A stretch of DNA of 64,000 nt from an uncultured Ruminococcus sp. (GTDB lineage: Bacteria; Bacillota; Clostridia; Lachnospirales; Lachnospiraceae). The notes below the pieces were generated by a model. It had not been told where the DNA came from, did no database searches, and saw nothing but the letters and a program-made list of their open reading frames with translations. Positions 33,940-49,052 of the stretch are shown here, piece by piece. Both the position numbers and the translations under genes were made by a program. The number at the start of each line of letters is the position of its first letter. Positions within the stretch are counted from its first letter, which is position 1. The DNA lies in NCBI GenBank assembly GCA_946494335.1, contig CAMMBV010000008.1, forward strand, positions 1-64,000, given 5' to 3'.

Positions 33940-34911
33940 TTATCCTCCAATCTGAGCCATACTGTGAGACTCCTCCTGCCTGATTCCTTTCTCCAGAAAC
34001 TGATGACCCTTTGGTTTATTTAAAATAACCTGGCCTGCTATCCGGCAGATCTCCTCATCGGATGCCCCGCCTCTTATCAACTCCCTTAAATCACATCCCG
34101 TTTCATACTGAAGACATGCTTTTAAAAATCCCTGGGAGGTCAGCCGGATCCTGTTGCAGCTGCCGCAGAATTTATGGCTGATGGCGCTGATGAAACCGAT
34201 TTTACCTTTCAGTCCCTCCACCGTATAATAATGACAGGGGCCGCTGCCCAGATGGTCCGCTGCCGGATAAACCGGACCGAAACTGCTCCTGAGCGTCTGA
34301 AGGATCTCATCTTCTCCCTGAAAAGCAAAGTTTTTGCCGTAACCGATGGGCATCATCTCAATGAATCTCACATGGATGTTCCGATCACGGGCCAAAGCTG
34401 CAATTTCCATCAGATCCTGTCCCGGCATCCCCAGCGGGACGCAGTTAATTTTCAGCGGTATTCCCGATTCATAGGCCGCGTCAATTCCCGCTTTTACTTC
34501 CCGCAGCATATCTCTTCTGGTAATCCTGGAAAAAAGGCGTTCATCCAGGGTATCCAGACTGATGTTGATGCCGTCAAGCCCGGCTTTTTTCAGCTCATCC
34601 ACATAAAGCGGGAGCAAAATACCGTTGGTGGTCAAGGTCACCTTTTCAATGCCCGGCATCTCTTTTAACCGTGCTGCCAGCCAGGGCAGGTTCTTTCTCA
34701 CCAGCGGTTCTCCGCCGGTCAGTTTTATTTTTTTAATTCCAAGCCTTGTCATGCAGCGGCAGATTTGTAAGATCTCATCGTAACGCAAAATGTCATCATG
34801 GGATGCGCATACAACGCCTTCCTTGGGCATACAGTACACACAGCGCAGGTTGCAGCGGTCTGTCACTGATATCCTGAGATAATCAATATTTCTCTCAAAT
34901 TCATCCTTCAT
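33940..34911 (-). CDS. moaA: GTP 3',8-cyclase MoaA
   Basis: 323 residues, radical SAM. The N-terminal [4Fe-4S] motif [10 protein letters not shown] (near residue 19), [15 protein letters not shown] (near residue 65) and the C-terminal cluster motif [18 protein letters not shown] (near residue 247) are present. The protein ends without the classic C-terminal GG; it ends MAQIGG, which does carry a Gly-Gly pair. It makes the first pterin intermediate from GTP with MoaC. It overlaps the moaC end by 11 bases. Confidence 0.95.
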
Positions 34912-35383
34912 ACGAAAAATCTCCGCTCTTTCCTCCGCTTTTGCTGACCAGATGGATATCCTTCATCACCATTCTCTTATCGATAGCCTTACACATATCG
35001 TAAATGGTCAGCAGCGCAACCTGTACTCCCGTCAGCGCCTCCATCTCCACCCCGGTTTTGCCGTCCGTCTTCACGGTGCAGAACACTGTAATCTCATTTG
35101 CTCTGCGATTAAGCTCAAAGTCCACGCTGCATTTAGTGACAGAGAGGGGATGACAAAGAGGGATCAGGGAAGAAGTCTGTTTTACCCCCATGATGCCTGC
35201 AATCCGGGCAACGCCCAGCACATCACCCTTTTTCACCCTGTGGTTTTCAACCGCCTCCATGATCTTTTGGTCCACGCAGATGGTACCCCTGGCCACTGCG
35301 GTACGGCTGGTTATATTCTTTTCTGAAACGTCCACCATAACAGCATTTCCATTTTCATCAAAATGCGTCAGTTCTTTTTCCAT
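34901..35383 (-). CDS. moaC: Cyclic pyranopterin monophosphate synthase
   Basis: About 160 residues. [13 protein letters not shown] (near residue 70) and [22 protein letters not shown] (near residue 112) are diagnostic. It converts the MoaA product to cPMP. I chose ATG 35383 (MEKELTHF) because GAGGAGG stands 6 bases before it. It overlaps the 3' end of moaA. MoaD and MoaE are not in this window. Confidence 0.95.
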
Positions 35384-35393
35384 TTGTGCCTCC

Positions 35394-36326
35394 TCACCGG
35401 TATGTCTCAAACATCACCTTTACCCGGCCTCCGCAGACCATCCCCAGATCCGCCGCCTCTGAATTGGAGAGATCGTATTGCTGCAGGGCGAAAGGCGTTC
35501 CATTTTTGCACAGCTCCATGGCGTATTTTACCGCTCTGTGCTCGACGGCGCCTCCTCCGATGGTACCGAAGCTTTTTCCGGAAACGGTAACGACCATACG
35601 GCTTCCTCTCCCCCTGGGAGACGAGCCCTGTTTATCCACCACCGTCACCATGGCTCCCGCTTCCTGACAGTGCAGTCCCTCCCGCACCGCATCGTCCAGC
35701 ACATTGCGGTCAGACCGGTTTTTCACCTGCACAATCTCAGCGGCTATACTCACCGCAATTTCCGCCGGCGTCTGTCCCCCTATGGGAAGTCCGATGGGCG
35801 AATGCAGCTCATTTATCTGCTCTTCCAAAAAACCGTCCTGCCTTAACCGGTCTTTTTGATGGCGTACTTTACTTCTGCTGCCGATCATTCCCAGATAATC
35901 ATAAGACCTTGTAAGAATGTCTGTCAGACAGGTGTAATCATGTTCATGTCCTCTGGTCAGTATAACATAATATGCATGGGGCGGAAATGAAACTTTTGAA
36001 AAATCTTTTTCAAAATTCAGGCACAGAACGTGATCCGCCATGGGAAAACGGGAAAAACTGGCGAATTCCTCCCGGTCGTCAATTACAGTCAGCTCATAAT
36101 CCATCATTTTCAGTATCTGCGCCACGGCGAGAGATACGTGTCCCCCGCCGCAGAGCACCGCATGAATTCTCCCAAGAAAAGTTTCGCAGAATATACCGTC
36201 TCTTTGTTTTTCCCGGAAAAATTTCTTTTTCCCCACATCCGTTCCTTCCAGAACTGTCGTCACGTCCACTGCGTTTTCCCGACCAAGACGATCCGTCAGT
36301 TCCAGATAAAATCCGCGATAATCCAC
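35394..36326 (-). CDS. XdhC/CoxI-family maturation protein with reversed domain order
   Basis: 310 residues. The Rossmann (XdhC) domain comes first: [18 protein letters not shown] near residue 55, [12 protein letters not shown] near 123 and [10 protein letters not shown] near 143. The CoxI part comes last: [18 protein letters not shown] (near 232), [13 protein letters not shown] and [10 protein letters not shown]. In classic XdhC the CoxI part is N-terminal. Members bring sulfurated molybdenum cofactor to xanthine dehydrogenase-type enzymes. I recall a class named XdhC family aldehyde oxidoreductase maturation factor that this may match. The start is GTG, ten bases after GGAGGG. Confidence 0.88.
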
Positions 36327-36340
36327 TTTGTATTGCCCTC

Positions 36341-37375
36341 CTATGCTTTTCCAAAACCGCAGTTGGGGAAAGTACAGGTTTTACAGTTCAGACAGAGTCC
36401 CCCAACACCCAGCGCTGCAATTTCTTCCTTTGTGACGGGATCGTCCGCCAGAACTCTGGGCAGCACCAGATCAAAAATTGTCCTTTTGGCATACATGACG
36501 CACCCCGGAAGTCCCAGAACCGGAATCTCACTTCCGTCCTCTTTTTTATAATAGGCAATCATCAGCATAGCTCCCGGCAGTACCGGCGCCCCATAGGTCA
36601 CAACCCGTGCGCCCGTATCGGCAATGGCTCCCGGCGTCCGGTCGTCAGGATCCACACTCATTCCGCCGGTACAGACCACCAGCTGCGCTCCTTTTCCTAT
36701 CATATGGACAATTTCATCTCTGATTTTTTCTTTCTCATCTCCCACCAGACTTTCCATTGTCACGCTGGAGCCGAATTCTTCTATTTTTTCTTTTACCACC
36801 GGCGTAAACGTATCTTTGATCCTGCCGTAGAAAACTTCATTTCCGGTAGTCACAATACCCACATTCTTCTTTTGAAAAGGCAGCAGCTTCAGCAAAGGCT
36901 CTGTTCCGGCCGCTTCCCGCGCCCTGTTCATCTTTTCTTCTTCAATGACCAGCGGAATGATCCTGGTACCCGCCAGCACATCCCCCTTCTTCACCACCGT
37001 ATTATCATGTCTGGATGCAATCATCATCTCACCCAGCATATTGACTGCCAGCATCCCGTCTTTTCTGATTTTAAGCAGGCCGTCAGCCGTGGCACGAAGT
37101 TCGATTTTCCCTTCCTTTACCTCAGAGGGCTCCATATACTCGTTTTTACAGATGTCATACAGAATCTGAGCCGCCTCATTTTCATGGAGAATTCCTTTTT
37201 TTTTCTCCCAGACGTAAATATGGTCTTTTCCCATGGACAGCAGCACCGGGATATCCTCCTGGCAAATCACATGTCCTTTTCGGAAAGCAGGTCCTTTTTT
37301 CTCCCCCCGGATGATCTGCGTAACATCGTGACACAGTACGTGTCCCACTGCTTTTGCAGTCTCTATCTCCTTCAT
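36341..37375 (-). CDS. MoeA-like molybdopterin-binding protein with a C-terminal Cys cluster
   Basis: About 344 residues. The MoeA/MogA-type domain spans about 160-320 with GIVTTGNEVFYGRI, VVCTGGMSVDPDDRTPGAI and VLGLPGCVMYAKRTIFD. The C-terminus LCLNCKTCTFPNCGFGKA holds four Cys in CxxCxxCxxxxC spacing, which could bind an Fe-S cluster or zinc. True MoeA is longer and has other N-terminal domains. The gene probably acts in molybdate insertion or cofactor handling. I chose ATG 37375 behind AAAGGAGG; the longer ORF overlaps the phosphatase gene. Confidence 0.85.
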   Translation of the reverse strand: MKEIETAKAVGHVLCHDVTQIIRGEKKGPAFRKGHVICQEDIPVLLSMGKDHIYVWEKKKGILHENEAAQILYDICKNEYMEPSEVKEGKIELRATADGLLKIRKDGMLAVNMLGEMMIASRHDNTVVKKGDVLAGTRIIPLVIEEEKMNRAREAAGTEPLLKLLPFQKKNVGIVTTGNEVFYGRIKDTFTPVVKEKIEEFGSSVTMESLVGDEKEKIRDEIVHMIGKGAQLVVCTGGMSVDPDDRTPGAIADTGARVVTYGAPVLPGAMLMIAYYKKEDGSEIPVLGLPGCVMYAKRTIFDLVLPRVLADDPVTKEEIAALGVGGLCLNCKTCTFPNCGFGKA

Positions 37376-37410
37376 ATTTGTGCATCCTCCTTTTAGTGAA
37401 TATAATACTG

Positions 37411-37986
37411 TTAATCCGCCGGCGGATATTCCGTCAGCACATAAGCGCCGTAATCCAAATGGTATCGGAACACCTGATTCAAAGGATTCCCTTCCTCCCG
37501 GCATTTCATGGCTCTGATCACGCCTGCATGGGTGATGGCCAGCACCAGCGATTCCCGGCCAAAAGATTTCTCCCAGGATACCACCGCATTCATAACCCTG
37601 TCCGCCAGTTTTTGAAAATTCTCCCCGCCCGGCGGACTAAATTTCTCCGGTTCTTTTCCCCTTCGTTCATATTCTTTTGGATATTTCTCCCGGATCTCCT
37701 CCATCGACGCCCCCTCCCATAAACCCATATGAATCTCCCGCAGCCCTGGGTCACGACAAAACCCCATTCCATATATCCGTGCGGCGATCTGAGCCGACTG
37801 AACACATCGAAGGAGATCGCTGCAGCAGATTTTAGAAACGTCGGGAAAGATTTGGTGAAGCTTCTTCAAAGATCTCTCCATTTTCTCTTTTCCCTTTTCC
37901 GTCATGGGATAATCACTCTGTCCAATATACCGCTTCACCGTATCGGGCAGGAGAATTTCCCCGTGACGCATCCATATCACTCTCAT
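37411..37986 (-). CDS. Histidine phosphatase family protein
   Basis: 191 residues of the phosphoglycerate-mutase-like fold. The catalytic RHG is at MRHGEILL (residues 6-9), the second Arg in CSDLLRCVQSA, the Glu in LREIHMGLWEG, and the second His in AITHAGVIRAM. This resembles the CobC group. In this operon it probably dephosphorylates a nucleotide or cofactor intermediate. The substrate is unknown. It starts 4 bases after the adenylating-enzyme gene ends. Confidence 0.85.
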   Translation of the reverse strand: MRVIWMRHGEILLPDTVKRYIGQSDYPMTEKGKEKMERSLKKLHQIFPDVSKICCSDLLRCVQSAQIAARIYGMGFCRDPGLREIHMGLWEGASMEEIREKYPKEYERRGKEPEKFSPPGGENFQKLADRVMNAVVSWEKSFGRESLVLAITHAGVIRAMKCREEGNPLNQVFRYHLDYGAYVLTEYPPAD

Positions 37987-37990
37987 TGCC

Positions 37991-39259
37991 TTACCTGCAC
38001 CGGATATACCGCTTTCCTTTGTACTGAGGATTCCAGCTTTCTACTGTCTCCCAGGTTAACTCAAATTCCACTCCGTCCTTTTTCATAAACTGTTCCTCCA
38101 AAAGCTGCCGGGCCAGACGGATCTTTCCCCCGGTCTCCCCAAGAAAGACCAGATGAAACAGGAACCTTTGTTCTTTTCTCTTATATTCTACACCGTAGTC
38201 CAGCAGTCCGTCTATGGAAAACAGTACCTCATCCAATGCTGCCATATCCACACTTCTTTTTCCATCGCTCACTGCTCCCTGTATCCGGCCGCCCGTTTTT
38301 ACAATTCTGGTCAGATAACTGCCGCAGCCGCAGCGACTGTGATCCAGAACCGCCCGGTCTCCCGTCCGGTACCGGATCAGCGGCATGCCCTTTCTCGTCA
38401 GCGTGGTCAGCACCAGTTCCCCTTCTTTGCCGTCTGGCACCGCCTTCCCGTCAGACGGATCAATCACTTCCATCAGAAGATCATTTTCCCGGATATGCAT
38501 CCCCTTGCGGCAGCAGCATTCCAAAGCGCCGCCCAGTCCCGTTTCCGTCATGCCGAAATGATTAAACACACGGCATTCCAGTCCGTCCTCGATTCTCTTT
38601 CTCACACTGTCCGCCAGATAATCCGTACTGACCAGAATATTCTTCAGATTCAAAGATACATGTTCCGCCTTCGCATGTTCCGCCAGCGCCAGCGCCTGCA
38701 GGGGTGTTCCTACAAAAGCATGGATATGCTCTCTTAACAGCAGCTGCAGACTGGCCTGGGGATCTTCCACCGGACCCGGACCATATCCGATAACCTTTCG
38801 CCGTTTCAGTCCTTTCAGCAGCAGTTTCCCCACGGAATCTTCCGCGCTGCTGGGGAGAAATACGGCGGTCTTTTCACCAGGGGCGACAATCTGCCCCATA
38901 CCGTGACAAAAAAAATCCACCGTCAGTTCCAGATCCTCCCCGGTAAAATAAAGCCTTTTGGGTCTGCCCGCAGTGCCGGAAGTCTGAAGCGTTACTACCC
39001 GCTCTATCTCTCCCTGGGAAACACAAAGCATTTTCAGTCCGTCTCTTCGCAAGTCCTCATCCGAAAGAAAAGGAAGCTTTGAAAATGATTCCAGATCCCG
39101 GGGACTTTCGCAGTCTTTAAACCTTTTCCGGTAAAATGGACTTTTTTCGCAGATATACGCAAACATAGCTTTTACCTTTTCTGTTTGCCAGCGAACTATC
39201 CCTTCCCGGTCAGAGATTCCATGCTTTTCTTTGATCCATTGATCCAGTACCGACTTCAT
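37991..39259 (-). CDS. PaaK-like AMP-forming enzyme, DVU_1553-type
   Basis: 422 residues, related to phenylacetate-CoA ligases. TLQTSGTAGRPKRLYF (near residue 90) is the ATP loop, FNHFGMTETGLGGALECC (near residue 236) the adenylate-binding motif and RYRTGDRAVLD (near residue 298) the hinge motif. A run CGCGSYLTRIVKTGGR follows. It should activate a carboxylate as its adenylate, but whether it makes a CoA thioester is not known. From memory, homologues are found next to Mop-type oxidoreductases as DVU_1553 family. ATGA overlap with the radical SAM gene. Confidence 0.82.
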   Translation of the reverse strand: MKSVLDQWIKEKHGISDREGIVRWQTEKVKAMFAYICEKSPFYRKRFKDCESPRDLESFSKLPFLSDEDLRRDGLKMLCVSQGEIERVVTLQTSGTAGRPKRLYFTGEDLELTVDFFCHGMGQIVAPGEKTAVFLPSSAEDSVGKLLLKGLKRRKVIGYGPGPVEDPQASLQLLLREHIHAFVGTPLQALALAEHAKAEHVSLNLKNILVSTDYLADSVRKRIEDGLECRVFNHFGMTETGLGGALECCCRKGMHIRENDLLMEVIDPSDGKAVPDGKEGELVLTTLTRKGMPLIRYRTGDRAVLDHSRCGCGSYLTRIVKTGGRIQGAVSDGKRSVDMAALDEVLFSIDGLLDYGVEYKRKEQRFLFHLVFLGETGGKIRLARQLLEEQFMKKDGVEFELTWETVESWNPQYKGKRYIRCR

Positions 39260-40650
39260 TCTTCCGTCTTTCCCCTGTACAGACCCATTCCCTGCCGGGA
39301 CGTCAGATTATAGGCACAGAACGGAATCAGTCTGGCTCCGTCCCCGGGATTCACCACATGTATGTAGCACTCTTTCAGCCGGTTCAGATCCAGATTCCAG
39401 GCATCCATAAAGGTCATACAGGAGACGGCCAGCGAATGGGTGTCCACCCGTTCCAGAAAATCATCCAGGGATCCGGTGCTGCAGCTGCAGCAGCAGCTGC
39501 TGTTGCCCGCCTGAACCTTTCTGACTTTTGGCCTGCCCGCCGACCAACGCCTGGCCACAAATTTCTGCGCTTTTCGGGACGCTTCCGGTTCCGCTGTTTT
39601 TTCACTGCCGCAGCCGCAGGAATTATCCTTCTGCCAGGATCGTAAGGTCCCGTCTTCCATCAAAATAAAATTACCGCTGAAGGAACAGTAGGGATTTTCT
39701 GCATTCCCCGCCCGGAAATCCCCGACCTTCATCCTGCCGCCGGTCTGCCTTTCGATGTCAGAAAGCAGCTGGGGAAGCGTATACCGCCTGCCTGGATCCA
39801 TCTGGTCGTACCGTCCAAAATAACTTAAGGGCTGAAAATGCACACCCCGGATGGCCGGCATGCCCTCAAGGGCAAAATCCAGGATATCTCCCACTTCTTC
39901 TGTGTTTATCCCTTCTGCCAGAACAGGAACCAGGACCACTCCGATCCCTGCTTTGCTGCAGTTTTCAATGGCAGCTTTTTTCTCATCCAGCAGCATCTTT
40001 CCGCGCAGCGCCAGATAAGTGCGTTCCGAAAAGCCGTCAAACTGCAGGAAAACACAGTTTAGTCCCGCTTCGGCCAGTCTCTTTACGTAATCCATATCAT
40101 GTGCAAGACGGATGCCATTGGTATTGAGCTGGAAAAAAGTAAATCCCTTCTCCCTGCCCAGACGAATGATTTCGGGAATATCGTCCCGCAGCGACGGCTC
40201 CCCTCCCGAAAGCTGAATATTAAAGGGCCCTCCCTTTTCCATCAGCATATCATACCATCTGCCTATGGTTTCAAGATCCGGCTCTGCTTCTGTTTCTTTT
40301 CCCGATGAGGCGAAACAGATGGGGCACCCCAGATTGCAGCGGCTGGTCACCTCCAGAAGCACACAGCATGTTTTCTGACGGTGATCCGGACAAAGGCCGC
40401 AGTCATAGGGACATCCTTTTTCTCTTTCTTTCGCTGGATTCACAGGCGTCTGCGCTCTGTCCTCCTGACGCCATTTTTCATAATCCGGCCCGCCGCTCCA
40501 GATCAGCGTTTTAAAAAAACCGTGCCTGGGACATTCTTTTTCCATATAAACTTTATCATCGTAACGTACATTTTTTGCCGGTATTTTTTTCAGGCAAACC
40601 GGGCATACACTTTCTGTCTCCCGACAGACTACACCTTTTCCTTCCATCAT
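39256..40650 (-). CDS. Radical SAM protein of the aldehyde-oxidoreductase island (TrsS-like)
   Basis: 464 residues. The radical SAM motif CNLGCPICFASSG is near residue 104, preceded by two Cys pairs (CPVCLKK, CPRHG) and CPYDCGLCPDH. LSGGEPSLRDDIP near residue 147 and LNTNG follow. The C-terminal part has CGCGS and a Cys-Ser run SSCCCSCS near residue 390. I recall relatives called radical SAM (seleno)protein TrsS; here all positions are Cys and no in-frame TGA occurs. Its reaction is unknown. ATGA overlaps join it to both neighbours. Confidence 0.82.
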   Translation of the reverse strand: MMEGKGVVCRETESVCPVCLKKIPAKNVRYDDKVYMEKECPRHGFFKTLIWSGGPDYEKWRQEDRAQTPVNPAKEREKGCPYDCGLCPDHRQKTCCVLLEVTSRCNLGCPICFASSGKETEAEPDLETIGRWYDMLMEKGGPFNIQLSGGEPSLRDDIPEIIRLGREKGFTFFQLNTNGIRLAHDMDYVKRLAEAGLNCVFLQFDGFSERTYLALRGKMLLDEKKAAIENCSKAGIGVVLVPVLAEGINTEEVGDILDFALEGMPAIRGVHFQPLSYFGRYDQMDPGRRYTLPQLLSDIERQTGGRMKVGDFRAGNAENPYCSFSGNFILMEDGTLRSWQKDNSCGCGSEKTAEPEASRKAQKFVARRWSAGRPKVRKVQAGNSSCCCSCSTGSLDDFLERVDTHSLAVSCMTFMDAWNLDLNRLKECYIHVVNPGDGARLIPFCAYNLTSRQGMGLYRGKTEE

Positions 40651-40955
40651 TTATCTCTCCTTTTCTCCAAGATTTTCTTCAGTTCCTTTTCGGTCCACGC
40701 TTTCTGCTCTTCCCACTCTTCCGGCAGAAATCCTGCTTTTATTATATTATCCTTTAACATGCCTTTCAGCCGGATCCCGGAAGCTGTCTCCAGCAGAAAA
40801 AACGGCCGTCTGAAATTTCTTTTTACCTCCAGCCGTCCCAGCTGTGCCAGCTGCTCCAGAAAGTCGTCGTCAATCTTTTCCGGCATTGTATAGATATAAG
40901 ATTTTGCGTTGGCAAAGCAGTTTTCCGCTTTTTTACAGATAAACTCTTCTCTCAT
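40647..40955 (-). CDS. Small conserved protein of the molybdenum island, unknown function
   Basis: 102 residues, charged and mostly helical, with two Cys near the N-terminus (EEFICKKAENCFANAK). I do not recognise a family. The 4-base ATGA overlaps at both ends with the aminotransferase-like and radical SAM genes argue that it is a real part of the operon and perhaps a partner protein of one of them. Confidence 0.7.
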   Translation of the reverse strand: MREEFICKKAENCFANAKSYIYTMPEKIDDDFLEQLAQLGRLEVKRNFRRPFFLLETASGIRLKGMLKDNIIKAGFLPEEWEEQKAWTEKELKKILEKRRDK

Positions 40956-42070
40956 GCCAGTATCGCCTCCAGTGCTTCCTTTACTTCCTCTGTCTCCTCT
41001 TTCGTAGTAAAACGGGAAAGACTGAAACGTACAGTACCTGTGGCCGGCATGGAAAGATACGGAAAGATCAAAGGAGCGCAGTGGAGGCCTGTCCTGCAGA
41101 TGATATCAAAGCTGCCGTACAGCATATCGCCTATATCTTCCGGCGAATATTTTTCTGATACAAAGGTCAGCACCGGTGTTCTCATCCCTTCTGTGGATAC
41201 AACCCGGCATCCCAGCCTTCTTAAAGTGTCCTCCAGATCCCGCACCAGATCCAGTACTTTTTCCGTATCCGCCGGATGATTCCGGTTCCAGTCCAGCGCA
41301 TAATGAAGCCCCGCCAGGGAAGTATCATTCTGGGTTCCCGGCTCCAACCGAAGGGGCATCTCGCGGGGCATCTCCTTCTCATCCGAACGGATTCCGGTTC
41401 CCCCGGTGAACACCGGAGCAATGGAAATTTTTGGCGATACATAAAGGGCTCCGGTTCCCTGAGGACCCAGAAGATATTTATGTCCGGTGATTACCGCCAT
41501 ATCAAGCTCCCACTTACCGGCCTGAATAGGATACAGCCCCGCCGTCTGGGAGGCATCCAGAAATACATGGCACCCCCGCTCCTTCGCCATGGCGGACAAC
41601 ACTTCCACATCATTGACCGCCCCGGTTACATTGGACGCATGGGTCAGCACCAGCATCCTGGGATGATACTCCTTCAAATACCGGTCCAGTGTTTCCGCCT
41701 GCAGCCGTCCATCCTCTGAAACGGGCATTACGAAACAGTGAAGTTTCCCCGCTTTCTCAAGAAGATACAAAGGACGCAGCACCGCATTGTGTTCCGCCGC
41801 TGTTGTCAGCACCACATCCCCCTGCTCCCATGGAAATCCCAGCAGCCCCATATTCAGTCCGCTGGTAGCACAGGAGGCGTATACAATGTTTTCCGCTTCC
41901 CCAATACCCATTACCTCTGCAATGGCTTCCCGGCAGGTTTCCTCTTTGCCGGCCGCCGAGAAGGTAGCCCGGTTCCCGGGAGACGGGATTTCATCCAGCG
42001 TTTTCTTTACCACATCTGACATCCCCGGCGCTTTGGGCCAGGACGTGGCGGAATTGTTGAAATAGATCAA
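40952..42070 (-). CDS. Class V aminotransferase, cysteine desulfurase-like
   Basis: 372 residues. The N-terminus YFNNSATSWPKAP, THASNVTGAVND near residue 145, FLDASQTAGLYPI and the PLP lysine in VITGHKYLLGPQGTG (near residue 197) are CsdB/SufS-like. A possible catalytic Cys is in RTGLHCAPLIFP (near residue 334). It probably provides persulfide sulfur for the Mo=S ligand of the oxidoreductase, in the way that cysteine desulfurases work with XdhC. Selenocysteine lyase activity is an alternative. The start is TTG, overlapping the stop of the nucleotidyltransferase gene. Confidence 0.86.
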   Translation of the reverse strand: MIYFNNSATSWPKAPGMSDVVKKTLDEIPSPGNRATFSAAGKEETCREAIAEVMGIGEAENIVYASCATSGLNMGLLGFPWEQGDVVLTTAAEHNAVLRPLYLLEKAGKLHCFVMPVSEDGRLQAETLDRYLKEYHPRMLVLTHASNVTGAVNDVEVLSAMAKERGCHVFLDASQTAGLYPIQAGKWELDMAVITGHKYLLGPQGTGALYVSPKISIAPVFTGGTGIRSDEKEMPREMPLRLEPGTQNDTSLAGLHYALDWNRNHPADTEKVLDLVRDLEDTLRRLGCRVVSTEGMRTPVLTFVSEKYSPEDIGDMLYGSFDIICRTGLHCAPLIFPYLSMPATGTVRFSLSRFTTKEETEEVKEALEAILA

Positions 42071-42705
42071 AGAATCTCCCCTTTCCTGCGCTGCTCGTAC
42101 GCACGAAGCAGCCGTTCATAATCCTCTGGCAGGTCTGTGTCCTGGAGGACTTCCTCATCCTCCACCTCCAGACAGCTCACCTCATGTCTTTTCTCATATT
42201 CCCCGATCACTCCTCTGAGTCCCTCATCCCCTTTATAACTGAGAATTTCTCCGATCACTTCGGGGGAAAAAACCGGCGGATGCCCCTGCTTCCCGCAGCA
42301 GACGGGGATCAGGATCTTCGCTTCTTGCTTTTCATAGGCTTCTATCACACTCTTTATGGTTTCCGGCAGAATAAGAGGAACATCACCTGGACAGAACAGT
42401 ATGCCGGAAGTGCCTGCCTTTACCTCCTTCAAACCCAGCCTTATGGACTCCAGCATATCGGTCTCGTCATAATCCCTGTTGATGGCATACCGAACACCCA
42501 AAGTTTTCAGAAGCGGAATCACCTCATGTCTTTTATATCCCACCACTACAATAATATTTTTCAAGCCCGCCCTCTGAAAGCTTTCGATGGTTGACTGCAG
42601 GATGCAGCCCTCTCCCAGCGGAAGCAGCGGCTTAAACTTTTTCATACGTCTGGAACAGCCCGCCGCCACAATTAATACCGTGTAATCCTGATATTTTGTC
42701 CTCAT
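42067..42705 (-). CDS. MobA/MocA-like nucleotidyltransferase
   Basis: 212 residues. LIVAAGCSRRMKKFKPLLPLGEG (from residue 10) is the NTP-binding loop, and LFCPGDVPLILPETI near residue 103 carries the metal-binding Asp. It belongs to the MocA group, which attaches CMP or GMP to molybdopterin; Mop-type enzymes carry MCD (the cytosine dinucleotide form), so CTP:molybdopterin cytidylyltransferase is the best guess. From memory, the family is also called DVU_1551. Ribosome binding site GAGGAG. Confidence 0.87.
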   Translation of the reverse strand: MRTKYQDYTVLIVAAGCSRRMKKFKPLLPLGEGCILQSTIESFQRAGLKNIIVVVGYKRHEVIPLLKTLGVRYAINRDYDETDMLESIRLGLKEVKAGTSGILFCPGDVPLILPETIKSVIEAYEKQEAKILIPVCCGKQGHPPVFSPEVIGEILSYKGDEGLRGVIGEYEKRHEVSCLEVEDEEVLQDTDLPEDYERLLRAYEQRRKGEIL

Positions 42706-42726: not shown

Positions 42727-43152
42727 TTATGTCAGCTCATATTCCGTCAGCATATCCATGATTTTTTCACAGCAGGATTCAATCATAGGAAAGCAGACCG
42801 TCATACATTTGGAAAAGTCTCCCTGCACAATATCCTGACACCTGGAAGAACCGTAATGGCTTTCCCAGTTATCCCCAAACCATTCCACATACTCCTGTAT
42901 GATTTCCCGGCTTCGGCTGTGCTCCAGCTCCTCCGATTCACCCTTGCCGGTAAAAAGTCCCAGAATGCAGCAACCTCCCGTTAAAGCTCCGCAGACTCCG
43001 CCGCCATGTCCCATTCCTCCTGTAAGGCCGCTCATGGCCCGTAAAAGATCGGGATTTTCCATGCCCGCAGCCTCAAGAATCACAGCCATCATCATCTGGC
43101 TGCATTCAAACCCTTCCAAACCCAGTTCCATCAGCCGTTCCTTTAATTCCAT
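42727..43152 (-). CDS. C-GCAxxG-C-C family protein
   Basis: About 141 residues. The family pattern is seen: FECSQMMMAV (near residue 15), then GGVCGALTGGCCILGLF (near residue 51) and CQDIV...SKCMTVCFPMIESCCE towards the end. The family probably binds a metal cluster or acts as a redox protein and is often found with iron-sulfur enzymes. I chose ATG 43152 behind AAAGGAGG. It overlaps the methyltransferase stop by about 10 bases. DVU_1555 is the name I recall for the version in this neighbourhood. Confidence 0.85.
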   Translation of the reverse strand: MELKERLMELGLEGFECSQMMMAVILEAAGMENPDLLRAMSGLTGGMGHGGGVCGALTGGCCILGLFTGKGESEELEHSRSREIIQEYVEWFGDNWESHYGSSRCQDIVQGDFSKCMTVCFPMIESCCEKIMDMLTEYELT

Positions 43153-43730
43153 CTGATTTTCGCCTCCTTTGACAGTATCGCCGCAAAGTAACTCATTTTT
43201 CTTCCTTTCCACGGAAAAGAGCCGTGTTCCCAAACCCATCTGGCCATGTATTCCCGAAAAAAAGAGGTTTCCTCCTCCCAGTCAAGCAGACAAAACCCCG
43301 TCTGCTTAAAGTATCTTTCCCAGCTGCCCTTTGATAAGGTCTCAGATTTTATATCAAAAAGATCAGAGATCAGAAGAACACCGTCCTCCTCCAAAAGTGC
43401 ATATATCCGCTCTAGCGCTTTTTGCACGTCCAGCAGGGAGAGAACACATTCCGCCATAATCATCCGGTATTTTTTTTCCGGATGGTAGGAAAATAAACTG
43501 GTCTGGCAGAAAACAGGATTATCCTGCAAGATACCGTCCTCCCATGATTTTTCAATATCGATGCCGGTACAGACAACACCCTGTCCGGCCAGAAAACGTA
43601 CGGTCTGTCCGCTGCCGCAGCCAACATCCAGCACAGAACCTTCTTTGGTCCACAGTCCCATCCGCCGGACTTTTTCCAGCTGCCTGCGCGTCAGCGCCAG
43701 TCCCCCCGGATGTGTCTTCTCACAGCCCAT
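43143..43730 (-). CDS. SAM-dependent methyltransferase, DVU_1556/TrsM-like
   Basis: 195 residues. The class I fold has motif I VLDVGCGSGQTVRFLA (near residue 34) and TGIDIEKSW for the SAM ribose. The N-terminus MGCEKTHPGGLALT is distinctive and I recall it as common to the DVU_1556 group. The substrate could be a thiol, selenol or cofactor intermediate. It starts two bases after the two-CxxC protein gene. No TGA interrupts the frame. Confidence 0.84.
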   Translation of the reverse strand: MGCEKTHPGGLALTRRQLEKVRRMGLWTKEGSVLDVGCGSGQTVRFLAGQGVVCTGIDIEKSWEDGILQDNPVFCQTSLFSYHPEKKYRMIMAECVLSLLDVQKALERIYALLEEDGVLLISDLFDIKSETLSKGSWERYFKQTGFCLLDWEEETSFFREYMARWVWEHGSFPWKGRKMSYFAAILSKEAKIRWN

Positions 43731-43731
43731 C

Positions 43732-43953
43732 CTATTTATCCTCCAAAGCCTGTTCCACCTGGAATATTTTTCCGTATGCCAGTTCTTCCGGAATAAATCC
43801 CTGACCGCAAACGGGGCATTTTGGCATCAGTATGGGAAAATCATTTCCCATATAATGCAGTACAATCTCACCCGGCTCAAGGGGCACGCCGCACCGGTCA
43901 CAGATCAGGCTGCCCGCTTCAAACTCCCATGTTTCATAATATTTTTCCGACAT
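43732..43953 (-). CDS. Small two-CxxC redox or zinc protein, DVU_1557-like
   Basis: About 73 residues. Two knuckles, LICDRCGVPLE (near residue 16) and PKCPVCGQGFI (near residue 44), would hold zinc or iron as in rubredoxin-like proteins. No transmembrane segment. I chose ATG 43953; an AAGGAGA site lies upstream, inside the end of the 767-residue fusion gene, which it overlaps by 20 bases. An electron-transfer role with the upstream fusion protein is inference. Confidence 0.78.
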   Translation of the reverse strand: MSEKYYETWEFEAGSLICDRCGVPLEPGEIVLHYMGNDFPILMPKCPVCGQGFIPEELAYGKIFQVEQALEDK

Positions 43954-46216
43954 CCTGTTTCCCGTCTCCTTCCCCGGAAATTGCCATCCGGTGCGAATAG
44001 GCTCTTTCCACCTCATACACACCGTCTTCTCTGACACGGTAATAAACCCAGAAAGTCACATTTCCCACCTGCCGGTGGCCGATCATACATCCGCTTTTGC
44101 CGTCCCGGATCCTGTGTCCATTTTCGGACCATTCCAGAACCTGGCGGATATCGCTTTCCAGTATTTTCCGCTCCTCCAGCTCATTTTCCGTCTCCTGTGA
44201 ATACACAAGCTTCATTTTGTCCTCCTTTGGCGCTTTTTCGTTCCACAGCTCTTCCAAAAGCTGCCGCTTCAGTTCAAATCGGTTGTCCCGTCGAAGAGAA
44301 TAACCCGGCGCCTTTCTTTCCAATGCTTCCTGCGGATCATACAGCAGTTCCAGAATATGCACCGCCGTCCCTTTTCTTTTTACCAGCCGGTCCCGGCAGT
44401 TTACACAGTAAGTAAGACGCAGACCCTCATCTTCCCTCATCCACTGATCTGTCATCTCATCCGCCACCTGGGGATTGGATACCGGCGCCAGACCTCCAAA
44501 GCCGCAGCAAAGGGACTGTTCCTGTTTATATTTTTCTTCTTCCAGCTGATAGCCCATGTTTTTCGCCAGTGTCCGGACAGCCTTTCGCACTTTCGGATGA
44601 CTTCTGGCGCCGCAGCTGTCATGAATCACTGCCTGCTCCATCGTTTTGTGATACTCCTGCGGGAGTCCTTTTTCCAGCAGCACATCCCAGATACCGATGC
44701 AGGAAATATCCGGCATTTCCCGACAAAATACGTCGTAGCAGGTAGGGCATGCCATGATCAACACAGGACATCCCTGATCTTTCCAGGATTCTTCCAGCTG
44801 CTTTTTCGTCTTTTCAAACAATTCCTGTTCTCCGGCCCAGTCCGCTGTGACGCCGCAGCAGCCAAGGATCAGACCCACACTTTTTCCCATGCGCTTCATC
44901 AGATCCAGATACGCCAGTCTTACCGTCCAGGGCGATGAAGCAGCCAGCTGACAGCCCGGGAAGAATGCGAAATCGCTTTTTCCTTTTCCCGGCTGACACC
45001 GGGACAGAAACGCCGTCTCTGAATTACTGTAATTCATATCGTTTATGGCAAACTCAAAGGCGGACTGGGGCATTTTTTTCTTTTCCACCATGATCCGGCG
45101 TGCCTCCTGGATGGTCTCCCCAAGATTAAGACCATGGGGACACACGGCGGCACATTGCCCGCACAATGCACAGGAATTGATCATTTTGTTGGCGTGGCGC
45201 GTACCCATAGCGATGGAAAGATTATTGTAGATCTCCCGCAGATATTTTTTCGGATAAGATTTATAATGCCGCATGAAAGCACAGGCATCGGTACACTCCG
45301 TACATTTGCAGTCCAGACATCTTTGGGCCTCCAGGACAGCCTCTTCCTGCGACAGTACCCCGAATTCCGGTACAGAAGATTCTTTTCTTTCTTCTTTATC
45401 CCAGCGTACATGGAGAGTAGTCTCAAATACGCCCTCTCTCTCCCTGCCCGCATCCATGGAAACCTTTTTCAAAAAGCGATCCACAGATATGGCCAGACTC
45501 TTCCCATGTGCCATGGCGGATGCGTACGTTCCAAAGTTCTCCCTTATGGCATCGCCTCCGGCAAACATTGTGCTTCCTTCCACCTGAAAAATCGTCTCCT
45601 TCACCGCCAAAGGATCCTTCTTAAGCCCCCAGGCAATCACCACAGCGTCAAACTGCTCCAGAAGCGGGCCGGGATCGGCAATCTCATGTTCCAGTTCGAT
45701 GCTGACGCCATACTGCACCAGCTTCTTTCCCTCGTTTTCAAGAATGGCTTCATCTGCACGCCCATCCTTCCTCAGACTTCCCCAAAGCCAGGCTTCTTTT
45801 TCAAAAACCGTCACCGGATATCCTTTTTTTCCCAGCTCAACTGCCGCCGTAAGGCCGGTGATCCCTCCTCCTATCACTGCTGTCCGTTCCTTCTTTTTCG
45901 ACAAAAACAGACGTCTTTGTTTCACACTTCCCCATTCCACAGCTGAGCGCTCCAGTCTTTGCATAAGGAGCGCATCTCCGCAGTTTTTCCGAATACAGGC
46001 GTCCCGGCAGGGCTGCTCGCAGACACGGCTTAAAATTTCAGGAAAGGGCACGCTTTTTTCATAAACCGCTCTCGCCTGATTAAAATCCCCCTCCGAAATA
46101 TGGCCGCAGATATCCCGGCAGTTTACGTGAAGAGGGCAGACGGCCATGGCCGCCGGAGGCTGTTCCTGCACGCAAAGCTGTTCCAGTTCATGAAGTTTCT
46201 GCTGATTGACTTCCAT
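43934..46216 (-). CDS. Fe-S/FAD/HdrB-like electron-transfer fusion protein
   Basis: About 760 residues. The N-terminal GltD-type cluster region has CPLHVNCRDICG and CEQPCRDACIRKNC. A pyridine-nucleotide-disulfide-type FAD/NAD core follows from about residue 110 (VIGGGITGLTAAVELG) to 250. Then come two 4Fe-4S motifs (CLDCKCTECTDAC and CALCGQCAAVCP) and an HdrB-type CCG part (FFPGCQL, GCCG, HDSCGARSHP, LCCGFGG). A 90-residue tail (DIRQVLEWSENG...) looks like an added domain. It probably carries electrons between the oxidoreductase and NAD or a disulfide. The ATG at 46216 follows AAGGTGGG. Confidence 0.85.
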   Translation of the reverse strand: MEVNQQKLHELEQLCVQEQPPAAMAVCPLHVNCRDICGHISEGDFNQARAVYEKSVPFPEILSRVCEQPCRDACIRKNCGDALLMQRLERSAVEWGSVKQRRLFLSKKKERTAVIGGGITGLTAAVELGKKGYPVTVFEKEAWLWGSLRKDGRADEAILENEGKKLVQYGVSIELEHEIADPGPLLEQFDAVVIAWGLKKDPLAVKETIFQVEGSTMFAGGDAIRENFGTYASAMAHGKSLAISVDRFLKKVSMDAGREREGVFETTLHVRWDKEERKESSVPEFGVLSQEEAVLEAQRCLDCKCTECTDACAFMRHYKSYPKKYLREIYNNLSIAMGTRHANKMINSCALCGQCAAVCPHGLNLGETIQEARRIMVEKKKMPQSAFEFAINDMNYSNSETAFLSRCQPGKGKSDFAFFPGCQLAASSPWTVRLAYLDLMKRMGKSVGLILGCCGVTADWAGEQELFEKTKKQLEESWKDQGCPVLIMACPTCYDVFCREMPDISCIGIWDVLLEKGLPQEYHKTMEQAVIHDSCGARSHPKVRKAVRTLAKNMGYQLEEEKYKQEQSLCCGFGGLAPVSNPQVADEMTDQWMREDEGLRLTYCVNCRDRLVKRKGTAVHILELLYDPQEALERKAPGYSLRRDNRFELKRQLLEELWNEKAPKEDKMKLVYSQETENELEERKILESDIRQVLEWSENGHRIRDGKSGCMIGHRQVGNVTFWVYYRVREDGVYEVERAYSHRMAISGEGDGKQDVGKIL

Positions 46217-46316
46217 ATAATTCCCACCTTCATGTAAGAAAATGGCAGGAATAATCAAATGGCTGATTATCCCTGCCGCTAAGAACCGGGAAATAGATTT
46301 CCCTCATGTGTTCACG

Positions 46317-49052
46317 TTACTTCAGTGCATCCAGCGCCGCTTTTACTTTTTCCGGTCTGGCGGGAATCTCCGTGATTCTCGCACCGGTGGCGTTAAAGAT
46401 TGCACTTAAGATGGCCGGATGGCCTGCTGTCAGCGGACCTTCACCGCAGCCGGACGCTCCGTAAGGCCCAAGGGGTCTGGGAGTTTCCGTATAAATAATA
46501 TTGAAATCGTCCGGCACATCCTCCGGATAAGGAATACCGCAGCCCGCCAGTGTGGTATGCTTGCTGTAATCCTCAAAATCCTCGGAAAGAGCAAGACCGA
46601 ATCCCTGTGTACAGCCTCCGTACACCTGACCGTCCACTACAATCTTATTGATAATCGTACCGAAGTCACAGACTGTAGTAAAGCGGATCACGCGGACTTT
46701 GCCTGTCTCCACATTCACTTCCACCTCCGGGATGAACAGTTCATACATATAGTTGCTGAAAGGAGCACCCTGACCTGTTTCCAGATCACAGTCCGTGCAT
46801 GCGCTGGCTACCCATGTACCTTCATAGAAGGTGGGAATCTTTTCCGCCACCATCTCATCGTAGGTCCGGAATGTTCCGTCGGGTTTGCGCATGGCGTTCA
46901 CCAGCATTTCCGCTGCAACTCTGGTGGCATTTCCCGTCACCACATTGGAGCGGCTGCCTCCTGCCGGTCCCGACGCCGGCGTCAGCGCAGTATCGTTCAT
47001 CACCAGTTTTATCTTATCAGGCGTAAATCCCGCCTCTCTCAATGTCTCATGAGCCATGGTCAGCGTTCCAATGTCAGCGCCCTGTCCATGATCCTCCCAG
47101 GAATTAAATACCGTAACCGTTCCATCCGGATTCAGCTGGATATTGGCAAAGGAGCTGTCCTTTCCGTCAAGACCGCAGCCGTAGATGCCAAGGGCAAATC
47201 CTACGCCGTATTTCAGCTTATCCGTATTCATGGCTGCCAGTCTTTCTTTTGCCTCATAATAAACGGGTCTGGCTTTTTCAAACATTTCCTCCAGACAGTA
47301 AACTTCCGGCTCCTGCCCTGTGGGAGTGGTACATCCCGTACCTTCCCGGTAAATGTTCCGGTAGCGCAGTTCAAAGGGATCAATTCCCATCTTCTCCGCC
47401 AGAACATCCATACACACTTCCGAACCCAGGAAGGACTGGGGAGAACCGTATCCGCGGAATGCGGAGCCCCATGCATGGTTGGTACATACCGTCTGGCTTC
47501 GATTTCTTATATTCCGGATATCATATCCCGCTCCTGTAAACTGTGTCAGACGCATGGTCAGCAGATCCCCGAATTCAGAGTAAGGACCGTGATCGATATA
47601 GTTGTCCCCTTCCATGGCCAGCAGCTTTCCGTTTTCATCAGCGGCCATTTTCACATGCATAAAGGCGGGAGAACGTTTACCTGTGTAAGTAATATTCTGA
47701 TACTGATCGTAAACCAGGCTGCAGGGACGTCCATCCAGCGCCAGGCAGGCAACGCCCAGCAGCGCTTCCATAGTAGGACTGAACTTATATCCGAAGGTTC
47801 CGCCGGAGGGATTCTGAACCAGTCTGAATTTCTCCGGCTCAATCCCGATTCCTGCTGTAATCATGGCGGAATGCAGGTGAATTCCGATACTCTTGGAATG
47901 TACGGTCAGTCTGCCTTCCTCATCAATGTAGGCAAATCCGCAGTCCGGTTCCAGATGAAGATGCGGCTGGCGGCTGGAGTATGCGTCGATCTCCGCCACG
48001 TAGGGAGCGCTCTCCATAATGGACGCCGTCTCATCGCCCTTGATACAGTTGGTTTCATAATAGATATTGGGAGTGCCGGGATGAATTTCAATGGCATCCT
48101 CCGCAATTGCTTCCATTGCACTCATATAAGCCGGCAATGGTTCCAGATCCAGCTTCACTGCTTTTGCGGCTTCTCTGGCATGTTCTTCCGTATCGGCGGC
48201 TACGATGGCAACGGCATCGCCGATCTGGAAAATCTTTTCATCACAGAGTATGGGACGATCCCAGCCGTCACCTTTATTATTGGCAAAGGTGATAAGACCG
48301 CTGATCCGGTTCTTTCCTTTTACGTCTTTATGTGTAATAACTTTATATACGCCGGGCATTTTTTCTGCTTCGGAATAGTCAATGCCCTTTAAATTGGCAT
48401 GGGGAATATCCGCCTGCACCAGAGCCAGTCTGGCCGTATGCTCCGGCATCTGCAGCGCCATATCAGCGCCGTAATCCCAGGTACCGGTAACTTTCTGAAT
48501 GGCTGAAGGCCGGATATAACTGGTTCCCAGAATCTTATTTCCCACCGGTTTAAAAATCAGATCTTCCTTCTTCATCTCACCGCGCATAACTTTAGCCGCA
48601 TCCATAACGGCGTCCACCAGCGGTTTATATCCGGTACAGCGGCACAGATTCCTGTGTACCTGGAACCAGTGGCGCACTTCTTCCCGGGTGGGAGAAGGAT
48701 TTTGTTCCAGCAATACTTTTGCGGACATGATAAAACCGGGAGAACAGAATCCGCACTGCGCGCAGCCATGACCCATCCAGGCTACCTGAAGCGGATGCAG
48801 ATTGTCTGCAGAACCGATTCCCTCAATGGTTTCAATCACCGTGTCGTCTTTTATTTTTCCCATCTTCATAATACAGGAACGAACCGCTTTTCCATCCACG
48901 ATTACCGTACAGGTACCGCACTGTCCCTGATTACATCCGATTTTACATCCCGTCAGCAGCAGCTGCTCACGCAAAACTTTTGCCAGGGTATCATCGGGAT
49001 TCACAAGCAGGGTACGCGGCAATCCATTGATTACCAGTCTCTTTTTGATCAT
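46317..49052 (-). CDS. mop: Mop-type molybdenum aldehyde oxidoreductase
   Basis: 911 residues, colinear with the Desulfovibrio gigas aldehyde oxidoreductase Mop as I remember its sequence. The plant-type [2Fe-2S] motif GCKIGCNQGQCGTC is at about residues 34-48, the second cluster at CAQCGFCSPGF and NLCRCTGYKP (near 100-145). The molybdopterin domain begins near residue 180, and GASGCGEGPLTAG near residue 870 contains the catalytic Glu. No FAD domain exists, so electrons must leave through a partner, probably the fusion protein downstream. It oxidises aldehydes or purine-like heterocycles; the substrate is not certain. Ribosome binding site AAGGAGG. Confidence 0.92.
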   Translation of the reverse strand: MIKKRLVINGLPRTLLVNPDDTLAKVLREQLLLTGCKIGCNQGQCGTCTVIVDGKAVRSCIMKMGKIKDDTVIETIEGIGSADNLHPLQVAWMGHGCAQCGFCSPGFIMSAKVLLEQNPSPTREEVRHWFQVHRNLCRCTGYKPLVDAVMDAAKVMRGEMKKEDLIFKPVGNKILGTSYIRPSAIQKVTGTWDYGADMALQMPEHTARLALVQADIPHANLKGIDYSEAEKMPGVYKVITHKDVKGKNRISGLITFANNKGDGWDRPILCDEKIFQIGDAVAIVAADTEEHAREAAKAVKLDLEPLPAYMSAMEAIAEDAIEIHPGTPNIYYETNCIKGDETASIMESAPYVAEIDAYSSRQPHLHLEPDCGFAYIDEEGRLTVHSKSIGIHLHSAMITAGIGIEPEKFRLVQNPSGGTFGYKFSPTMEALLGVACLALDGRPCSLVYDQYQNITYTGKRSPAFMHVKMAADENGKLLAMEGDNYIDHGPYSEFGDLLTMRLTQFTGAGYDIRNIRNRSQTVCTNHAWGSAFRGYGSPQSFLGSEVCMDVLAEKMGIDPFELRYRNIYREGTGCTTPTGQEPEVYCLEEMFEKARPVYYEAKERLAAMNTDKLKYGVGFALGIYGCGLDGKDSSFANIQLNPDGTVTVFNSWEDHGQGADIGTLTMAHETLREAGFTPDKIKLVMNDTALTPASGPAGGSRSNVVTGNATRVAAEMLVNAMRKPDGTFRTYDEMVAEKIPTFYEGTWVASACTDCDLETGQGAPFSNYMYELFIPEVEVNVETGKVRVIRFTTVCDFGTIINKIVVDGQVYGGCTQGFGLALSEDFEDYSKHTTLAGCGIPYPEDVPDDFNIIYTETPRPLGPYGASGCGEGPLTAGHPAILSAIFNATGARITEIPARPEKVKAALDALK

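Follow-up and report, generated by a model that had tools for sequence, protein, structure and literature searches.

TrsS, a Tes-like radical SAM protein with variable cysteine-rich loops, and its probable partnership with a molybdenum aldehyde oxidoreductase

The trsS locus

The window, a 64,000-nucleotide stretch of DNA from an uncultured Ruminococcus sp., carries trsS in a cluster together with genes for molybdopterin synthesis and for a molybdopterin-dependent aldehyde oxidoreductase (Table 1). The sequence-only reading had named its product a radical SAM protein and linked it to TrsS, and both identifications hold: in an hmmscan search the protein scores 641.1 bits against the NCBIfam TrsS model NF045646 (cut-off 490), and PF04055 is present together with the CX3CX2C motif. 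Its score against the Tes model NF045702, 364.5 bits, lies under the cut-off of 450. Radical_SAM (PF04055) and Zn_ribbon_HMPTM are its only Pfam domains; the Pfam scan found no SPASM domain, which places the protein outside the radical SAM/SPASM peptide maturases. The closest solved relative in a sequence search is 7tol (E 1.3e-96), and Foldseek ranks 7tom first for the AlphaFold2 model, with a TM-score of 0.77 on the query. The window gene is an ordinary member of the TrsS family, and its eye-catching Cys run is a variable loop. TrsS was originally reported by Haft and Tolstoy in 2025. TrsS is a known but unstudied radical SAM enzyme: the family is listed in a review (PMC13188914), and a search of the open-access literature found neither an experiment nor an enzymatic activity for it.

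Table 1. Features of the trsS cluster in the window, with coordinates, strand, and supporting evidence
Feature	Position	Strand	Evidence
moaA and moaC, molybdopterin synthesis	33940..35410	-	TIGR02666, TIGR00581 over cut-off
XdhC-family maturation factor, related to the aldehyde oxidoreductase type	35394..36326	-	NF045664 281 bits, under cut-off 350
DVU_1553 family AMP-dependent ligase, start overlaps trsS stop	37991..39259	-	NF045666 415 bits; in 35/38 full loci
trsS, Tes-like radical SAM protein, 464 aa	39256..40650	-	NF045646, Pfam Radical_SAM and Zn_ribbon_HMPTM, 7tom/7tol fold match
C-terminal domain: C322, M412, C428, C445 (predicted Fe4S4, labile Met) and both Cys loops	39316..39687	-	
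Loop 2 Cys-Ser run SSCCCSCS (residues 384-391)	39478..39501	-	pLDDT <50 over 378-391; Cys columns <=8% C
Loop 1 (residues 342-352) with CGCGS (345-349)	39595..39627	-	pLDDT <50
Radical SAM motif CX3CX2C (C105, C109, C112)	40315..40338	-	PF04055; invariant in 165 TrsS
CX3CX2CX2H (C80, C84, C87, H90), predicted N-terminal auxiliary Fe4S4	40381..40413	-	Invariant in 165 TrsS; Tes ligands
CX2CX20CX2H (C16, C19, C40, H43), predicted rubredoxin-type mononuclear iron site	40522..40605	-	Invariant in 165 TrsS; Tes spacing
102-aa protein between trsS and the cysteine desulfurase gene	40647..40955	-	No Pfam/NCBIfam hit
Class V aminotransferase, cysteine desulfurase/selenocysteine lyase-like	40952..42070	-	TIGR01977 302 bits, under cut-off 377; PF00266
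MobA/MocA-like nucleotidyltransferase, DVU_1551-like	42067..42705	-	NF045665 211 bits, under cut-off 315; PF12804
DVU_1555 family C-GCAxxG-C-C protein	42727..43239	-	NF045669 152 bits, cut-off 103
DVU_1556-like SAM methyltransferase	43143..43730	-	NF045667 113 bits, under cut-off 155
DVU_1557 / DUF7479 redox protein	43732..44037	-	NF045645 89 bits, cut-off 60
Pyridine nucleotide-disulfide oxidoreductase / dicluster protein with CCG domains	43934..46258	-	NF045663 875 bits
Molybdopterin-dependent aldehyde oxidoreductase, partner enzyme	46317..49052	-	NF045668 1602 bits, cut-off 1100

Much of this neighborhood recurs around other trsS genes. Among 38 loci longer than 20 kb, scored with bit-score thresholds set by the analyst, the dicluster protein, the DUF7479 protein and the AMP ligase are each found in 35, the C-GCAxxG protein in 34 and the methyltransferase in 31; the aldehyde oxidoreductase lies within about 10 kb in 31. 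In two loci (L170 and L171), as judged by eye, the TrsS reading frame runs in frame into a SAM methyltransferase-like domain at its C-terminal part, a fusion that ties TrsS to the DVU_1556-type methyltransferase. The 102-aa protein co-occurs with the desulfurase-like gene, and most TrsS have no desulfurase gene adjacent. In five TrsS loci (L059, L068, L071, L033 and L086), none of the other queried cluster genes was found within the bounds of the locus. Within the window, a MoeA-like protein encoded at 36341-37504 ends in a Cys-rich tail (CLNCKTCTFPNCGFGKA), and its reading frame overlaps a CobC-like gene.

Conserved metal-site motifs

Conservation was scored in an alignment of 165 TrsS drawn from named GTDB loci and genome-search loci, from which ten sequences near or below the family cut-off, as well as duplicate loci, had been left out by hand. 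C16, C19, C40, H43, C80, C84, C87, H90, C95, C105, C109, C112, C322, C428 and C445 each stand at 1.00 in this alignment and C231 at 0.98, while M412 is invariant in the alignments A1 and A2. The published structure of Tes contains a mononuclear iron held by C9X2C12X20C33X2H36, an N-terminal Fe4S4 held by C73, C77, C80 and a conserved His, a radical SAM cluster, and a C-terminal Fe4S4 whose Met439 is labile (PMC9433317). The first three metal-site motifs of TrsS have the spacings of that structure. For the fourth, a residue count of the printed alignment places M412, C428 and C445 opposite Tes Met439 and Cys, and C322 outside the aligned stretch. By this correspondence C428 and C445 are likely ligands of a C-terminal Fe4S4; to name C322 as another is a guess. 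Beside the labile-Met position, C411 (window 39418-39420) is a Tes-like Cys shared by 9 of the 165 TrsS, including those of the window and its congener.

The Cys pairs N-terminal to the radical SAM motif in the window protein are C16/C19, C84/C87 and C95/C96. CxxC pairs thus do precede that motif, as the sequence-only reading had it, but the CGCGS that it placed with them lies after. Its broader suggestion, that the density of Cys betrays extra Fe-S clusters, is supported for the conserved Cys pairs, given their Tes motif spacings, and is not supported for the Cys-Ser run discussed below.

A probable partner aldehyde oxidoreductase

Across 80 genomes, an NF045668 aldehyde oxidoreductase is present in 40 of the 41 that encode TrsS and in none of the 39 that do not, the latter having been taken from the first ones listed and not drawn at random. 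TrsS is probably an obligate partner of this enzyme, and its maturase. Such a near-perfect match of presence and absence opens the partnership to direct genetic testing, and it hints that the NF045668 type of molybdenum enzyme may depend on undescribed radical SAM chemistry. A Desulfovibrio fitness paper concerns another, tungsten aldehyde oxidoreductase.

The explanation that we favor, and to which we give about even chances, is that TrsS is a Tes-like enzyme with four metal sites and an obligate aldehyde oxidoreductase partner, likely acting in maturation, with the Cys-Ser run lying in a Cys loop predicted to be disordered. Besides the SAM-binding Fe4S4, it would carry an N-terminal Fe4S4, a C-terminal Fe4S4 whose Met is labile, and a mononuclear iron bound by Cys3His. 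Most likely, TrsS would make a modification needed by the cofactor or the polypeptide of the NF045668 enzyme, and would act with the neighboring ligase, methyltransferase, nucleotidyltransferase and XdhC-type protein. The Cys loops may serve as optional arms on which sulfur or a soft metal is kept for a time close to the C-terminal cluster. Family membership, ligand motifs, predicted disorder, the variable run and the genomic co-occurrence are observed here, whereas the chemistry, the part in maturation and the function of the loops are inferred.

Co-occurrence of this kind fits a shared pathway as well as it fits maturation, which counts against the maturase reading. Moreover, crystal structures of Desulfovibrio aldehyde oxidoreductases of this type contain an ordinary cytidine-dinucleotide cofactor, and nothing in it hints at a special modification. 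It is possible, if on balance unlikely, that TrsS is instead a pathway enzyme with incidental Cys loops, in a cluster that makes or degrades a small or lipid-like compound: the aldehyde oxidoreductase would oxidize the aldehyde of that compound, and the AMP-dependent ligase would activate the resulting acid. That the ligase, the methyltransferase and the dicluster oxidoreductase travel with TrsS agrees with such a pathway, as does the action of Tes itself on lipids (PMC9433317). Conversely, the XdhC-type, MocA-like, MoaA and MoaC proteins of the window cluster are typical of cofactor supply, and the alignment with Tes breaks at about 337-444 (chain positions), a region that includes the part of TrsS with the Cys loops.

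Cysteine-rich loops

The window TrsS contains 24 Cys in its 464 residues. It is alone among 50 window proteins checked (18,603 aa) in having at least four Cys within five residues, a density reached by 16 of 2000 shuffles of the protein. The sole other CCC among those 50 proteins belongs to the AMP-dependent ligase (residues 248-250, in ALECCCRKGM). The codons of SSCCCSCS are AGC AGC TGC TGC TGC AGC TGC AGC, so that the run and the two codons described by the sequence-only reading are indeed there, in mixed rather than strictly alternating order. That reading had also named poor conservation of the run across the family as the observation that would refute its proposal, and poor conservation is what the alignment reveals: each of the four Cys columns of the run holds C in at most 8% of the 165 sequences. 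In the predicted structure, pLDDT falls below 50 solely at 115-119, 342-352, 378-391 and 462-464, which puts both C-terminal Cys clusters in predicted disorder. Taken together, the sparse columns and the low pLDDT do not support a role for SSCCCSCS in binding an extra Fe-S cluster; by alignment and by model, the run is not a conserved metal ligand and sits in a predicted disordered, fast-evolving loop.

While the run itself varies, Cys pairs recur in both loops. A CC or CxC pair is found in the loop 1 region of 146 of the 165 TrsS and in the loop 2 region of 45. The loop-1 pair is lacking in 19, and 10 are without a pair in both regions, so TrsS does not strictly need its Cys loops. On a FastTree phylogeny built with the loops excluded from the alignment, the history of the loop-1 pair takes 5 changes and that of the loop-2 pair 26. 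A trade-off between the two was considered and rejected: loop-2 pairs occur in 9/19 loop-1-negative versus 36/146 loop-1-positive sequences (Fisher p 0.053), and independent pairs on the tree give no support. The Cys-less state also occurs in second copies. Each of L041, L042 and L073 carries a TrsS whose loops both lack Cys pairs, and no aldehyde oxidoreductase match lies within any of these loci. In L042 (9086-13312), two TrsS genes share one cluster, one without Cys pairs, the other with Cys clusters in loop 1 (CC) and loop 2 (CCCC); similarly, Sporomusa sp. KB1 (L032, L041) has a copy with and a copy without Cys pairs on one contig. ArsM-type methyltransferase genes lie near the Cys-less copies (L041, 1417-2973; L042, 779-1834), and L042 also holds an arsenate reductase-like reading frame.

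Several relatives carry long Cys arrays in loop 2. One of them, L037, has four SCCCC units. Three of these, each 13 codons long, were compared in pairs: the pairs show 3, 5 and 6 codon differences, every one synonymous, with nonsynonymous sites numbering approximately 32.7 and synonymous sites 6.3. The remaining unit, which comes first in the sequence and stands outside this count, shows by eye one amino-acid change, Ala for Gly, past its Cys codons; synonymous-only divergence therefore covers three units of one gene, and in these codon comparisons it suggests selection for Cys. TGC and TGT codons are mixed, as read from the codons, in the Cys arrays of L072, L077, L105 and L174. The loop-1 pair is absent in L172, L072, L077 and L105.

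In the window the run looks, from its codons, like a recent short AGC/TGC triplet expansion, since the same-genus relative L168 has the shorter SCCQTG in place of SSCCCSCSTG. One might go further and regard this triplet-repeat expansion as neutral, the run being a functionless part of a disordered linker. That somewhat unlikely view nevertheless accommodates the restriction of the run to AGC and TGC, the shorter run of the congener and the unconserved columns. It accommodates less readily the loop-1 pair of 146/165 members, the synonymous-only divergence of the three L037 units, and the 26 changes of the loop-2 pair, which together point to recurrent gain of Cys and selection for it in these loops generally.

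What the Cys might do is a separate matter. The sequence-only reading had also suggested a sulfur-carrying peptide arm, a role that the Cys clusters may have: they recur in loops predicted to be disordered and look selected in at least one relative. One proposal, concerning the loops only and compatible with the maturase explanation favored above, is that they hold persulfide from the adjacent desulfurase-like enzyme and rebuild a C-terminal cluster whose sulfide is consumed. Tes sets a precedent of sorts in forming a carbon-sulfur bond between its substrate and one of its clusters (PMC9433317), and in the window the desulfurase-like gene lies directly upstream of trsS. Loop-2 Cys pairs are also commoner where a desulfurase is adjacent (8/14 versus 33/144 without; Fisher p 0.0096), and the three comparable L037 units differ by synonymous codons alone. 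However, correcting for relatedness removes the association with the desulfurase (median p 1 in a sign test), the adjacent gene is missing from most TrsS, and the loops are missing from some, such that this proposal seems to us rather improbable. A wider version is equally doubtful. In it, movable, expandable and disordered Cys-cluster arms, ranging from CC to CCCC, would deliver sulfur or metal to the C-terminal cluster of a radical SAM maturase dedicated to the aldehyde oxidoreductase; selection for Cys would have accompanied their gain, loss, tandem amplification and move from loop 1 into loop 2. If so, TrsS would draw sulfur or metal from recurrent Cys-cluster loops, an unusual route for a radical enzyme.

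Selenocysteine

The sequence-only reading had further proposed selenocysteine (Sec) at one of these Cys positions in relatives. The idea has some basis in that the NF045646 family name contains "(seleno)protein" and the review lists one Sec form in TrsS (PMC13188914), with the accession WP_327020591.1 for the listed protein. No internal in-frame UGA was found, however, in roughly 200 TrsS, sampled at the level of family, order, class and phylum and supplemented by 80 named loci; this figure is a sum over searches and not a counted set, 192 sequences having been collected, of which a few score under the cut-off of the family. The window gene has Cys codons, and no UGA, at these positions. L026 has one TGA at its very end, and the 80 named loci have stops near their ends alone; in L026, L058, L076, L105 and L109, lone TGA or TAA codons close to the ends were read, from their position, as ordinary stops or upstream sequence. 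SelD over the cut-off is absent from the window genome and from its congener G1139, the best hit in the former reaching 90 bits against a cut-off of 125 and being equally near ThiL and HypE; among the 80 genomes, SelD passes the cut-off in 33 of the 41 TrsS-positive and 19 of the 39 TrsS-negative ones. With no such UGA and no SelD over its cut-off, Sec is not plausible in the window genome, and that the run marks a selenium site, with Sec replacing one of these Cys in relatives, is very improbable.

Comparison with known systems

Tes (GDGT-MAS; MJ0619 of Methanocaldococcus jannaschii; 7tol, 7tom) shares its domain order with TrsS, as well as the rubredoxin-type and N-terminal Fe4S4 spacings and, as far as the alignment reaches, probably the Met and Cys of the C-terminal cluster region. 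In contrast, C95, invariant in TrsS, is missing in Tes, the alignment is interrupted across the Cys loops, and no lipid gene context was seen around TrsS. The maturation of molybdenum hydroxylases offers a second parallel, as XdhC, MocA and desulfurase-type proteins are found in the window cluster beside the aldehyde oxidoreductase. The classical form of that maturation, however, is not known to require a radical SAM enzyme, an AMP ligase or a methyltransferase. The selenium-dependent molybdenum hydroxylases are related to the window oxidoreductase, which scores 443.5 bits against TIGR03311, under the cut-off of 830, in a genome whose SelD candidate is likewise under its own. A further known system is the NF045646 family itself. 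The window protein differs from it in being all-Cys, in a genome with no SelD over the cut-off, with a longer Cys-Ser run in loop 2 and the rare Tes-like C411. It nonetheless matches the family model over its full length, well over the cut-off, and shares its neighbor families: the DVU_1551 to DVU_1557 types, the dicluster protein and the aldehyde oxidoreductase.
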